Positions 42,308 through 48,013 of a stretch of 64,000 nucleotides of DNA are shown here, in pieces (position 1 is the stretch's first letter; every line of letters starts with the position of its first letter). This stretch comes from an uncultured Pelagibacteraceae bacterium. GTDB lineage: Bacteria; Pseudomonadota; Alphaproteobacteria; Pelagibacterales; Pelagibacteraceae. The translations under genes and the position numbers were made by a program. The stretch lies in the NCBI GenBank assembly GCA_902610755.1, contig CACLWW010000004.1:1-64000 (forward strand), read 5' to 3'. The notes under the pieces were generated by a model. The model searched no databases and had not been told where the DNA came from. It saw only the letters and a program-made list of their open reading frames with translations.

Positions 42308-42607
42308 ATGGAATTAAAAGATAAAGTAATATCAGAAATCAAGAAAATCTATGATCCCGAAATACCAGTAAATATTTATGATTTGGGTTTAATTTATAAT
42401 GTAAAAGTTGATAAAGAAAATGTTGTAGAAATTAAAATGACTCTTACTACTCCAAATTGTCCAGTTGCCGAAAGTCTGCCTAAAGAAGTAGAGGAAAGTG
42501 TTAAAGGTATTAAGGAAGTTAAGGATGCAAAATTAGAATTAGTTTGGGAACCGCCATGGGACAAATCAATGATGTCAGAGGCAGCAAAATTGGAGTTAAA
42601 TTTATGA
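42308..42607 (+). CDS. sufT: SufT / DUF59 (MIP18) Fe-S maturation factor
   Basis: A 99-residue DUF59-family protein. The core is YDPEIPVNIYDLGLIYNV, with the conserved Cys in TLTTPNCPVAESLP and the C-terminal LVWEPPWDKSMMSEAAKLEL, which is specific to the SUF-associated branch. These proteins help supply clusters to target enzymes; the mechanism is not settled. It abuts sufU and overlaps sufA by 4 bases (ATGA). Confidence 0.93.
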   Translation: MELKDKVISEIKKIYDPEIPVNIYDLGLIYNVKVDKENVVEIKMTLTTPNCPVAESLPKEVEESVKGIKEVKDAKLELVWEPPWDKSMMSEAAKLELNL

Positions 42608-42936
42608 GTCAGATAATTAAACTTAGTGACAAAGCAGCGGACAGAATAAAGTCAATTTTATCGAACGATAAAACCTCTTTAGGAGTAAGAATTGGTGTTA
42701 AGAGTGGTGGATGTGCTGGGATGTCTTACGTTATGGAATATGCAAAATCAGAAAATCCAAATGATGAAATGATTGAGGAAAAAGGTGTAAAAGTATTTAT
42801 AGATCCTGGTGCCGTTATGTATTTGTTAGGTACTACAATGGATTTTAAAGAAGAGGAGTTTTCATCATCTTTCGTGTTTAATAATCCTAACGAAACTGAG
42901 CGTTGTGGATGCGGAGAGTCTTTTAAAATAGAGTAA
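42604..42936 (+). CDS. sufA: A-type Fe-S carrier (SufA/IscA family)
   Basis: The track starts this ORF at 42544, but ATG 42604 (MSQIIKLSDKAADRIKSIL) fits both the family N-terminus and the ATGA overlap with sufT, giving 110 residues. The three cluster-binding cysteines are in GGCAGMSYVMEY and ERCGCGESFKIE. A-type carriers receive clusters from the scaffold and deliver them to client proteins. This is the last gene of iscR-sufBCDSUTA. A T-run follows (TTGTTTTTTTT, about 42959-42969) without a convincing hairpin. Confidence 0.94.
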   Translation: MSQIIKLSDKAADRIKSILSNDKTSLGVRIGVKSGGCAGMSYVMEYAKSENPNDEMIEEKGVKVFIDPGAVMYLLGTTMDFKEEEFSSSFVFNNPNETERCGCGESFKIE

Positions 42937-42999: not shown

Positions 43000-45054
43000 A
43001 TGAAAAAGGACACTTATAAAAACAAGGCCACTTTTCTAGAAAAATTAAAAACCAAGTCTAAACGAGAAGCAAATTTGTTTTTTTCTTTGTGTGAAGACGA
43101 TAGTGAAATAGTAAACACAAAAAAATTCAAGGAAGTTTTATTAAACTCAGGTTTAAAAGCCAATGATAAAAGACTATATAACCTTTTTCAGAATTTAGAC
43201 GCTCATGGTGATAAAATTGTTTTTGAAGACTTTATTGATATTATCCGAAGTTCAGAATTAATTGTTGAAAAATCTTTAAGAGGTGAATTATCAATCCCAG
43301 ATTTTAGCTATTTTGCAAAAAATTTGGATAGTATGTTTGATGAAGTAAAAAAAATTAAAACAGGGGAATTAGCATCATACATCCCACCACTAGCTGAAGT
43401 TGATCCAGATCAATTTGGTGTTGCAATTGTAACAGCAGATGGTCAAATATATCAAAAGGGTGATAGTAATGTTGATTTTTCAATTCAATCTATGTGCAAA
43501 CCTTTTAACTATTGTTTTGCAATGGAAAGATTGGGTTTAGAAAAAGTTCATCAACATGTTGGTCAAGAACCATCTGGTAGACAATTCGATGATCTAACTT
43601 TATTAGCAAAAACAGCTATAGGTGACCTGCAAGGAGAGCATGCTAAAGATAATCGAAACGGAAAATCTAGTCGCGTTCCTTTTAACCCAATGGTCAACGC
43701 TGGTGCGATAATGACAGCTGGTCTAATAGGTCCTGAAGAGTCTCACAGTCAAAGATTAAGATACATAAGACAACAGTTTGGCAGGCTAATAGGATGGTCT
43801 CCAAAAGATGATTTTGGTGCTGAGTTACCAAGATTCAATAAAAATATGGCTCGCCAAGAAAATTTTACGGGATATAATAATATTGCAATGGGTTATCTTT
43901 TGATGGCTACAGGCAATTTACCCCATACCAAAACCAAGCTGCACAATGACATACATCCTGATGAGGATGAATTTGACTTTTACACAGAACCCGCAGTTAC
44001 CGAAGCACTCAAGCTCTATTTTAGCATATGTTCATTAGAGATGACTTCTGTAAATTTTGCAACAGCCGCAGCCACGCTTGCTAATAGTGGCGTTAATCCC
44101 CTAACTCAAGATCGTGTACTAAGTCAGAAAACTGTAAGAAATTGTTTACCAGTTCTACAAACTAGTGGGATGTATAATGCTAGTGGTACATTCTTTCAAC
44201 AAGTGGGATTACCAGCAAAAAGCGGAGTAGGTGGTGGAGTTATATTAATAGTTCCAAGACTGATGGGAATATGTATTTTTTCACCTCGCTTAGACAAACA
44301 AGGAAATAGTGTTAGAGGAATTGAAATGGCGAGACGAATTACATCAAAATATTTAGTTCATACTTTTGATGGTACAATGACAGATACAGATCGTCTTGAT
44401 CCAAAAATACCAATTTCGAAGTGGCGTGCGAATAGCTGTGGAGAGGCAATTTGGGCTGCAAGCAATGGAAATATTAGAACATTGGAGCGTTTAGTTAGTG
44501 AACAAAGAGATCTTCAAAACGGAGACTATGATATGAGAACTCCATTGCATTTAGCGTCAGCTGAAGGTCAACTAGAAGCAGTTCAATTTTTACTTAAACA
44601 GGGTGTTAAACCGATACCAGATCGTTGGGGCGGTTACGGATACTTTGATGCAAAAAATAATAATCATAAAGAAATTGTAAAGGAATTTGAAAAACTTGAT
44701 ATTGATTACACTCAAGCATCACACTTAATTGAAGATCCTAATGGAAAAACCGACAAGATGGCAATTTATGATGATGAATTAGCAGTCATTGAACTATTGT
44801 TCGCAGCTTCCGAAAACAACGTTGAAGGTATACGAAATTTGGTTGCAAAGGGAATACCTGTGCATGCCGGAGATTATGACTCTAGAACAGCTTTACATCT
44901 TGCAGCTGCTGAAGGCTGCTTAGACGTAGTTGAGTACTTGGTTACACATGGACACCCTTTATTCGTTAGAGATAGATGGGGTGCTACACCTTTAGATGAG
45001 GCTAAAAGAGAAAAAAGAAAATCTGTTATTAATTATCTTAAAGATTTTAATTGA
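43000..45054 (+). CDS. glsA: Kidney-type-like glutaminase with EF-hand-like and ankyrin domains
   Basis: A 684-residue glutaminase, twice the size of ordinary bacterial GlsA (about 310). Residues about 22-90 form an EF-hand-like helical domain (LFQNLDAHGDKIVFEDFIDI), residues about 115-440 the serine-dependent glutaminase core with SXXK (QSMCK; Ser164, Lys167), NPMVNAGAIM, NNIAMGYLLMATG and LPAKSGVGGGVILIVP, and residues about 480-684 ankyrin repeats. The architecture is that of animal KGA/GLS, and DYDSRTALHLAAAEG closely resembles the animal repeat. The ankyrin module is doubled (GDYDMRTPLHLASAEG and GDYDSRTALHLAAAEG). It releases ammonia and glutamate from glutamine and faces glnA, the opposite reaction. 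Confidence 0.93.
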   Translation: MKKDTYKNKATFLEKLKTKSKREANLFFSLCEDDSEIVNTKKFKEVLLNSGLKANDKRLYNLFQNLDAHGDKIVFEDFIDIIRSSELIVEKSLRGELSIPDFSYFAKNLDSMFDEVKKIKTGELASYIPPLAEVDPDQFGVAIVTADGQIYQKGDSNVDFSIQSMCKPFNYCFAMERLGLEKVHQHVGQEPSGRQFDDLTLLAKTAIGDLQGEHAKDNRNGKSSRVPFNPMVNAGAIMTAGLIGPEESHSQRLRYIRQQFGRLIGWSPKDDFGAELPRFNKNMARQENFTGYNNIAMGYLLMATGNLPHTKTKLHNDIHPDEDEFDFYTEPAVTEALKLYFSICSLEMTSVNFATAAATLANSGVNPLTQDRVLSQKTVRNCLPVLQTSGMYNASGTFFQQVGLPAKSGVGGGVILIVPRLMGICIFSPRLDKQGNSVRGIEMARRITSKYLVHTFDGTMTDTDRLDPKIPISKWRANSCGEAIWAASNGNIRTLERLVSEQRDLQNGDYDMRTPLHLASAEGQLEAVQFLLKQGVKPIPDRWGGYGYFDAKNNNHKEIVKEFEKLDIDYTQASHLIEDPNGKTDKMAIYDDELAVIELLFAASENNVEGIRNLVAKGIPVHAGDYDSRTALHLAAAEGCLDVVEYLVTHGHPLFVRDRWGATPLDEAKREKRKSVINYLKDFN

Positions 45055-45082
45055 ACGATTTTTCTTAAACTACACAAATACT

Positions 45083-46489
45083 TTAACAACTATAATACAT
45101 TTCGTATTCAATAGGATGCGGAGTATCTTGAAAGTTATTTACTTCTTCCATTTTCAAGTCAATGTAAGCATCAATCTGATCGTCAGTAAACACTCCACCT
45201 TCAGTTAAAAATTTTCGGTCTTCATCTAAAGCTACACAAGCCTGTCTTAATGATGAACAAACAGTCGGAATACCTTTTAGCTCCTCAGGACTTAAAGCAT
45301 ATAAGTCTTGGTCCATTGGTTTACCAGGTTTGATTTTATTCTTAATTCCATCTAAACCTGCCATCAACATTGCTGAAAATGTTAAATAAGGATTCCCAGA
45401 AGCATCAGGAAATCTTACTTCAACTCTTTTACCTTTTTTACTTGTACTAAATGGTATTCGACAGCTTGCAGATCTGTTTCTAGATGAGTAAGCTAATAGC
45501 ACTGGTGCTTCAAATCCTGGAATTAGTCTTTTGTAGCTGTTAGTAGAAGCGTTTGAAAAAGCGTTAAGTGCTCTTGCGTGTTTAATAATCCCACCAATGT
45601 AGTACAAACATTCATCAGATAGTCCGGCGTATTTGTCTCCTGCAAACAACGGCTTATCTCCATTAAAAATAGATTGATGGATATGCATACCTGAACCGTT
45701 ATCATTCTTAACTGGTTTTGGCATAAACGTAGCTGTTTTACCAAATGAATGAGCTACATTATGAACTGCGTATTTATAAATTTGCATACTGTCACCTTGG
45801 TTAACTAGAGTGTTAAACAAAGTTCCGAGTTCGTGTTGGCTTGGTGCAACTTCATGGTGATGTTTCTCGACCTTTACACCCATATCCCTCATTGCTTTAA
45901 GACATTCAGATCTTAAATCTTGTCCACCATCAACTGGAGGAACCGGGAAGTAACCACCTTTAATCTTTGGTCTGTGTCCCATATTTCCATTATCATATTT
46001 CTTTCCTGTATTGTAAGGACCTTCAATACTATCAATTTCAAAACCTGTTTTATTCATATCGTTAGAAAATTTTACATCATCAAATACAAAAAATTCTGGT
46101 TCTGGTCCAAAATAAGCTTTGTCTCCAATTTTAGTTTTTTTTAAATATTCCTCAGCTTTTTTTGCAGTGGATCGTGGATCTCTCTCGTAAAAACTTTTAG
46201 TAATTGGGTCCATTACATCACAAAAAAGTACTAATGTAGTGTGTGAAAAAAAAGGGTCTACGAAACTGTTTGATAAATCTGGCTTTAAAATCATATCAGA
46301 CTCATTAATCGCTTTCCAACCAGCAATCGATGAACCATCGAAAAAAATTCCATTATTTAGCATATCTTCATCTACTGTAATTAGATCTTGTGTTACGTGT
46401 TGTAGTTTACCTCTAGGGTCAGTAAATCTTAAATCTACATATTCAATTTCTTTGTCTTTTATTTTTTTTAATATGTCTTTTGCACTCAT
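45083..46489 (-). CDS. glnA: Glutamine synthetase type I
   Basis: GlnA makes glutamine from glutamate, ammonia and ATP. I place the start at 46489 ([20 protein letters not shown]), 12 residues shorter than the track. Markers: [25 protein letters not shown], the catalytic region [27 protein letters not shown], the glutamate loop [10 protein letters not shown] and [10 protein letters not shown]. The adenylylation Tyr region [10 protein letters not shown] is kept, so control by GlnE is possible. No glnB is beside it; the gene is alone, convergent with the glutaminase across 28 bases. Confidence 0.96.
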
Positions 46490-46628
46490 ATAATTTGACC
46501 TTTCAATTTTAAAGTTTAATAGCAAATAAAAATATATTAATATCGTTCATTATATTGATATCTCCTATGCAATTTAAACATGGATTGATACCTAAGTTAT
46601 AAATATTTTACAAACAACTAATAGTTGA

Positions 46629-47111
46629 ATGAATGACTTATTAAACAAAGAGCCAGTAAAACGAGTGATTGAAACCTTAAATAGGTTTAATGAAAACCTC
46701 AAGGTTCAAATTTTGGAAAAAACTGCAAGGACAGCAAAGGAAGCAGCTAATGCCTTAAATTGTGAGGAGGGTGCTATCGTTAAAAGTTTAGTTTTCAAAA
46801 CAGAGACAGAATTTTTAGTTTGTTTAATATCTGGCGATAAAAGATGTTCTTTAAACAAGCTCAAAAAGGTTATTTCAAAAAAAGATGTTTCAATGGCAAG
46901 TGCAGATGAGGTTAAAGCTCAAACTGGTTTTACTATTGGTGGTGTTTCACCAGTAGGTCATATAAATAACCTAGATATAATTATTGATAAAACACTTGAA
47001 AGATTTCAAATTGTGTATGCTGCAGCGGGACATCCAAATAGTATATTCAAAATAGATATTTCAAAATTAAAAGACCTAACAAAAGGAAGGGTTGAGGATA
47101 TTACTGAATGA
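46629..47111 (+). CDS. YbaK/EbsC-type aminoacyl-tRNA deacylase
   Basis: A 160-residue YbaK/ProX-like editing domain that removes wrong amino acids from tRNA. The fold is visible in ARTAKEAANALNCEEGAIVKSLVF, the lysine-containing SGDKRCSLNKLKKVI, and GFTIGGVSPVGH, followed by the C-terminal HPNSIFKIDISKLKDLTKG. It is a stand-alone editing protein; which tRNA it edits is not decided by sequence. It overlaps the EamA gene by 4 bases (ATGA) and probably forms a two-gene operon. The 139-base gap before it and glnA shows no clear operator. Confidence 0.88.
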   Translation: MNDLLNKEPVKRVIETLNRFNENLKVQILEKTARTAKEAANALNCEEGAIVKSLVFKTETEFLVCLISGDKRCSLNKLKKVISKKDVSMASADEVKAQTGFTIGGVSPVGHINNLDIIIDKTLERFQIVYAAAGHPNSIFKIDISKLKDLTKGRVEDITE

Positions 47112-48013
47112 GACAGCCTACTATAGCAGATTATTCATTATTGGTTTTTCTGGGAGTAGTTTGGGCCTCTGCTTTTTTTAACATTAAATTAGCAACAGAC
47201 TCGTTTGGTCCGATAACTATTGCATTTATTAGAGTTTTGTTGGGATCTCTGCCTTTAATAATTTTATGCTTATATAAGAACATCAAAATAGAGGTCTTTT
47301 CAAAAGATTGGCTGTGGTTTGCAGCAATAGGTTTTGTAAACTTAGTTTTTCCGTTTTTCTTAATCGCTTATGGGGTTAAAAACGTTCAAAGTAATCTAGC
47401 TGCAATATTAATGTCCACCTCTCCTTTAACTTCAACTCTACTTGCACACTTCTTTATTAAAAATGAAAAAATTAATTTACTTAAAGTAATTGGAGTGTCT
47501 ATTGGTTTTGCAGGTATAATATATCTATTTTCTGACAACTTCTTGATCAATGAAAACAACCTATTTTCAGCATTATGTATTTTAGTTGGTTCCTTAGGAT
47601 ATGTTATTGGTGGAATACTAACTCTGAAAATAAGTCATAAAAAAAATGAAAACGTGACTGCATCTATCTTAATTTGGGCAACAATAATTTTATTACCAAT
47701 TTGTTTTTATTTTGAAAAACCATGGAACTATAATCCATCACTAACATCAGCAATTTCAATAACTTATTTGGGAGTTATAGCCACAGGTTTAGCTTGGGTT
47801 TTAAGATTTAAAGTCTTAAAAGATAACGGTTTAGTTTTTCAGTCACAAGTAGCTTATTTAATTCCAATCTTTGGAGTAATTTTAGGTTATATTTTTTTAG
47901 ACGAACTAATCACATTTAAAGTACTAGTTGCACTTATTGCAATTATAATAGGGATATATTTTGTTAAAAAATCTACTACTTCGAAGAAGATTTTAAGTCA
48001 AAAAAATATCTAA
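47108..48013 (+). CDS. EamA-family (DMT) transporter
   Basis: A 301-residue inner-membrane protein with ten hydrophobic segments in two EamA repeats (YSLLVFLGVVWASAFFNIKL at the start; SITYLGVIATGLAWVLRFKV in the second half). DMT transporters export amino acids, nucleosides or other metabolites. The substrate is not predictable. It is coupled to the YbaK-like gene by ATGA. Its 3' end overlaps the convergent glycosyltransferase by 38 bases. Confidence 0.88.
   Translation: MRQPTIADYSLLVFLGVVWASAFFNIKLATDSFGPITIAFIRVLLGSLPLIILCLYKNIKIEVFSKDWLWFAAIGFVNLVFPFFLIAYGVKNVQSNLAAILMSTSPLTSTLLAHFFIKNEKINLLKVIGVSIGFAGIIYLFSDNFLINENNLFSALCILVGSLGYVIGGILTLKISHKKNENVTASILIWATIILLPICFYFEKPWNYNPSLTSAISITYLGVIATGLAWVLRFKVLKDNGLVFQSQVAYLIPIFGVILGYIFLDELITFKVLVALIAIIIGIYFVKKSTTSKKILSQKNI

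Follow-up and report, generated by a model that had tools for sequence, protein, structure and literature searches.

Multidomain glutaminases of bacteria are already known; Pasquali 2017, a study of glutaminase evolution, reportedly proposed a bacterial origin for the multidomain architecture. The closest described systems are the animal glutaminases KGA/GLS and GLS2, which carry a single ankyrin (ANK) module behind the catalytic core. In mammalian GAC and GLS2, phosphate drives the stacking of tetramers into catalytically active filaments. The activity of human GLS2 and KGA is restrained by their ANK repeats (PMC10912226), and according to a review the filament interface is missing from bacterial glutaminases (PMC13142944). 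Short-form bacterial glutaminases of the GlsA type (E. coli YbaS, B. subtilis YbgJ) comprise about 310 aa. At the level of genome organization, replacement-type flexible regions of SAR11 and other aquatic bacteria exchange homologous segments whose site is fixed and whose flanks are conserved (PMC4033161), and recombination in SAR11 is frequent (PMC12374537). We analysed a stretch of 64,000 nucleotides from an uncultured SAR11 bacterium of the Pelagibacteraceae (the window), in which a long-form glutaminase gene faces the glutamine synthetase (GS) gene glnA (Table 1).

Table 1. Features of the glutaminase locus, with positions in the window
Feature	Position	Strand	Comment
iscA-like gene	42544..42936	+	left border of exchanged block
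Long-form glutaminase gene, EF-hand_14 / glutaminase / 2 ANK modules	43000..45054	+	ATG start, 684 aa
EF-hand_14 domain, residues 25-100	43072..43299	+	Pfam; canonical Ca2+ loop absent
Glutaminase core, about residues 111-456	43330..44367	+	catalytic S164, K167, Y392 kept = human S286, K289, Y466
Activation-loop insertion, about residues 202-226	43603..43677	+	length variable, fast evolving
Second core insertion, about residues 309-330	43927..43989	+	not in human GLS or single-ANK form
ANK module 1, about residues 479-572	44434..44715	+	GLS-type motif DYDMRTPLHLASAEG...DRWGG
ANK module 2, about residues 593-683	44776..45048	+	GLS-type motif DYDSRTALHLAAAEG...DRWGAT
Spacer between convergent stop codons, 28 nt	45055..45082	.	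range among related loci, -4 to 33 nt
glnA, type I glutamine synthetase, convergent	45083..46525	-	allele exchanged jointly with glutaminase
YbaK-like and EamA-like genes	46629..48013	+	right border of exchanged block

Domain architecture and the two ankyrin modules

The window protein matched the glutaminase models PF04960 (302 bits, cut-off 27) and TIGR03814 (272.5, cut-off 255.4). EF-hand_14 was recognised by Pfam at 28.2 bits (cut-off 23.7), and several Pfam ANK models matched in two stretches. The protein thus had the KGA/GLS-type order of EF-hand_14, glutaminase and C-terminal GLS-type ANK, as the original prediction had read it, and the ANK module was indeed duplicated, whereas the animal enzymes have one. 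The catalytic S-K-Y residues and the GLS-type ANK motifs (DYDxRTxLHxA...DRW) were shared with KGA/GLS and GLS2, and human KGA and GLS2 were the nearest solved full-length structures as well as the top of the structure search. Relative to both animal and short bacterial glutaminases, the core contained two insertions. When the full protein was modelled by AlphaFold, the EF-hand and ANK parts were confident, with three helix pairs in each ANK module (pLDDT roughly 80-96), and the core had a low pLDDT, as no more than 22 related sequences were usable. Since the core was poorly modelled, the fold search backs the known homology and not the placement of domains. The gene was the sole PF04960 gene in its 867-kb partial SAR11 genome.

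The two modules carried the motifs DYDMRTPLHLASAEG...DRWGGYG and DYDSRTALHLAAAEG...DRWGATP, spaced 116 residues apart. Both motifs were found at equal spacing in all 18 double-ANK sequences examined, L127 included, and the single-module forms were the animal enzymes and the bacterial pair L082/L118. In a tree of the modules, first modules grouped with first modules and second with second, with weak support at the base. A duplication special to this lineage, which the original prediction had entertained, was therefore ruled out by the shared motifs and the split of the module tree; these point to a doubling that is old and bacterial and predates the lineages, the very outcome that the original prediction had named as its refutation. 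Pairwise dN/dS was 0.00-0.18 for module 1, 0.00-0.17 for module 2 and 0.02-0.15 for the core, with dS saturated in some of the larger comparisons. The low ratios indicate that both modules are maintained under purifying selection, in agreement with the earlier expectation that they had been selectively kept. In several comparisons, the linker between the modules and the insertion in the activation loop varied more than the ANK modules, and in most the activation-loop insertion evolved faster than the remaining protein.

A canonical D-x-D-x-D-G Ca2+ loop was sought in the EF-hand and was absent in both the SAR11 and the human proteins. The EF-hands of four other bacterial long forms (L039, L040, L041 and L126) had the canonical calcium-binding loop. 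Based on this comparison, the loop found in some bacterial long forms was lost in SAR11 and human GLS.

Relation of the core and its contact sites to the animal enzyme

A KGA-like architecture in SAR11 might be read as acquisition of the gene from an animal or other eukaryote. With human GLS the core of the window protein shared 42% identity and with L082 45%, versus 60-73% with the double-ANK proteins L037, L039, L040 and L041 from outside SAR11. In core trees with human GLS and GLS2 as the only eukaryotes, the two human enzymes grouped with L082, L118, L126 and L127 (93/91), and the window protein fell in a sister clade of double-ANK proteins (100/98) that left the animals outside. L127 has double ANK, yet its core lay on the animal side. 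With those two eukaryotes, the trees ruled out a eukaryotic origin, to which we assign a negligible probability, and they place the core of the window protein in a clade of bacterial enzymes, the sister group of one that unites animal GLS with a few KGA-like enzymes of bacteria; the animal affinity suggested by the original prediction was not upheld. The same prediction had proposed filament formation as in animal GLS. An enzyme of that type, stacking its tetramers in response to phosphate, would fit the identical domain order, the human KGA and GLS2 structures as closest full-length matches, and the retention of the catalytic S286, K289 and Y466 and the lock residues Y249 and F318 (human numbering). 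However, when the filament-contact residues of human GAC (PMC10912226) were mapped onto the window protein, only F373 of the seven was kept, the others being replaced (F355L, N375K, F378A, Q379R, D412K and Q416S). The phosphate-site residues were replaced as well (R317Q, K320D and R387N, nearly uniform across the subfamily), and the changes at positions 375, 378, 379, 387 and 412 were uniform throughout the derived subfamily. Since both sets of residues were replaced, filaments of the animal, phosphate-driven type are unlikely on this residue mapping, and the proposal did not stand. The lower activity of the ANK-bearing human forms themselves (PMC10912226) and the reported lack of a filament interface in bacterial glutaminases (PMC13142944) also speak against an animal-type filament enzyme, which we consider very improbable. 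Basic residues K375, R379 and K412, specific to the subfamily, occupy the face that serves filaments in animals.

The animal-side bacterial KGA-like glutaminases (L082/L118 with single ANK and L127 with double ANK) resembled the window protein in being bacterial and in combining core and ANK, with EF-hand_14 in L082. Unlike the window protein, they kept R387 and some filament-face residues, and the L082/L118 core was about 54% identical to human GLS, nearer to the animal enzyme. L082 (1147-2670) and L118 are single-ANK glutaminases of Alphaproteobacteria with genomes of about 1.4 Mb (G487 and G389), and neither GS nor the ammonium transporter gene (Amt) was nearby. The short forms shared the catalytic core with the window protein and also lacked the animal phosphate-site K320; unlike it, they had no EF-hand or ANK.

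Exchange of the glutaminase together with glnA

The position of glnA opposite the glutaminase gene across 28 bases was confirmed, and conservation of this neighbour, offered in the original prediction as a check, turned out stronger than proposed. In Pelagibacteraceae with a glutaminase between iscA and EamA, a convergent glnA adjoined it wherever the locus was long enough. In the relatives G017 and G036, which have no glutaminase, iscA faced glnA directly. Between L008-L020 and the window, glutaminase and GlnA were 89-95% identical versus 38-75% for the flanking proteins, and third-position identity was 60-67% for the two genes versus 39-57% for the flanks. By sliding identity, the window and L011 were 82-91% identical over the two genes and 50-72% in the flanks. 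In the comparison of L011 with L034, the flanks near the block were 95-98% identical in nucleotides versus 66-80% for the glutaminase and glnA. Between L028 and L181, the left flank was 97-100% and the right flank 92-97% identical, with the glutaminase present in the former versus absent in the latter and glnA at about 74%.

Trees were consistent with these contrasts. In the GlnA tree, 26 of the 27 glutaminase-linked GlnA proteins formed one clade (100/97), and the exception, L034, was placed among the alleles of SAR11 without glutaminase even though it is paired with one. In the iscA/sufS/sufU tree, genomes with and without glutaminase were intermixed, and a single clade of glutaminase-bearing genomes was rejected (p-AU 7e-50). 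Together, the identity contrasts and the GlnA tree, set against the mixed flank tree, imply that glutaminase and glnA were exchanged together; on this evidence SAR11 lineages gain, lose and swap the two genes as a single block. The exchange resembles replacement-type flexible regions (PMC4033161) in its fixed site, conserved flanks and homologous segments, but what moves here is a pair of genes for opposing enzymes, and glnA is also found in genomes that have no glutaminase. A strict co-adaptation of GlnA and glutaminase was unsupported, given the pairing in L034. At Rfam gathering thresholds, no riboswitch or other RNA was found near glnA in the window.

In L034 (6001-9443) the glutaminase-glnA pair was replaced as a block relative to L011. 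Glutaminase genes with neither GS nor Amt beside them were also found in other SAR11 (G204 and family f2) and in L031, L032, L040 and L189, some on short contigs. At L184 (7646-9655, genome G204), the SAR11 glutaminase adjoined an rpoD-like sigma factor gene instead of glnA, so SAR11 chromosomes have taken up the gene in more than one place.

Neighbourhoods, proposed role and distribution

Outside SAR11, type II GS (GSII) and/or Amt lay beside the double-ANK glutaminase in L037, L041/L194, L190, L191 and L192, Amt was near that of L030, and a GS-like gene and Amt were near that of L033; seven other lineages, some on short contigs, had neither. The synthetase of L194 matched best to chain 4bax, a type II enzyme from Streptomyces. 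In the short-form control, which covered flanks of up to 6 kb each, GS/Amt neighbours occurred in 1 of 20 loci (a GS gene). The difference between double-ANK and short forms gave a Fisher p of about 0.002, in a comparison that was framed post hoc and whose lineages are partly non-independent.

PII was detected in none of the 15 genomes tested from the window's genus and g5, and GlnE in none of the 20 SAR11 genomes tested. Two glutaminase-bearing genomes of family f2 still had PII, so the glutaminase is not simply a substitute for it. We favour, as somewhat probable, the view that the window gene encodes an old bacterial double-ANK glutaminase that opposes GS in one nitrogen module or turnover pair. 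The enzyme would be cytosolic, converting glutamine to glutamate and ammonium, and would form the half of a glutamine-turnover pair that works against GlnA, as suggested by the conserved catalysis and the linkage of the genes. Where GlnE and, in the window's genus, PII are missing, the glutamine pool might be set in part by how the two enzymes balance each other. By analogy with human GLS2 and KGA, in which ANK repeats lower activity, the ANK part may restrain activity or organise the oligomer, serving as an intrinsic brake or for assembly and not as a component of an animal-type filament.

An accessory catabolic gene of the ordinary kind, with the adjacent glnA merely carried along by crossovers in the flanks, could produce much of the same pattern, given frequent recombination in SAR11 (PMC12374537), the pairing of glutaminase in L034 with a GlnA of the glutaminase-free type, and further glutaminase sites without glnA. 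The recurrence of GS and/or Amt neighbours in unrelated lineages, with GSII in place of type I GS (GSI), and exchanged tracts whose limits, in two comparisons, roughly coincided with the two ends of the pair argue against such hitchhiking, which we regard as possible but the less likely course. The recurrent neighbours would also suit a complex in which the two ANK modules hold GS or the ammonium transporter; the conservation of both modules against a more variable linker and activation-loop insertion points the same way, as do the subfamily-specific basic residues. Yet the modules stayed alike across differing partner genes (GSI, GSII, GS-like or none), and the usual binding face of ANK is reportedly occluded in human GLS (Pasquali 2017). 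We regard docking of this kind as improbable. A wider scheme seems to us speculative and rather doubtful: KGA-like glutaminase, GS and Amt would form an ancient bacterial glutamine-cycling module, with ANK coupling or gating the opposing enzymes. Animals would keep the halves in separate compartments, and in SAR11, which would do so without PII, swapping of the block would retune the balance of nitrogen.

The double-ANK subfamily without filament contacts, the block exchange with glnA and the GS/Amt neighbourhoods appear undescribed in the literature searched, which left most subscription papers outside; that search found no paper on GS/Amt linkage of double-ANK glutaminases. The ANK tail of animal glutaminases is poorly understood, and a two-copy bacterial subfamily separates ANK function from filament control and offers a simple protein for testing it. 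The block exchange, in very abundant ocean bacteria seemingly without PII and GlnE, suggests that SAR11 nitrogen balance may be tuned by gene swapping, and the GSII-Amt-glutaminase neighbourhoods provide a concrete lead on the animal enzyme's bacterial background.

Glutaminase was found in 8 of 247 Pelagibacterales genomes, always as the long form (open frames of 672-703 codons), in 1 of the 149 most complete Pelagibacterales genomes, and in 51 of 385 genomes of the class, mostly as the short form. Loci nearly identical to that of the window were present in named Pelagibacteraceae single cells. Across 84,980 species scanned there were 42 loci, of which 34 were titled SAR11. The others came from further members of the Alphaproteobacteria or from MAGs, for example UBA1673, 'Rhodospirillaceae' Ww272, 'Desulfobulbaceae' Ww282 and 3_bin.88, the labels of Ww272 and Ww282 being insecure because of short contigs; additional long forms were present in the phylum of 3_bin.88. 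Carriage of the long form by phages or plasmids was rejected, as neither phages nor plasmids had a match over 80% of the query and viral contigs gave none. The double-ANK glutaminases at L195 (5887-8304) and L196 (3001-5454), which are the genes of L040 and L039 respectively, had about 120 extra N-terminal residues. This extension scored 21.7 bits against Bac_globin in L196 (cut-off 21) and 16.8 in L195, and the two are possible fusions of glutaminase with a globin of the bacterial truncated type.
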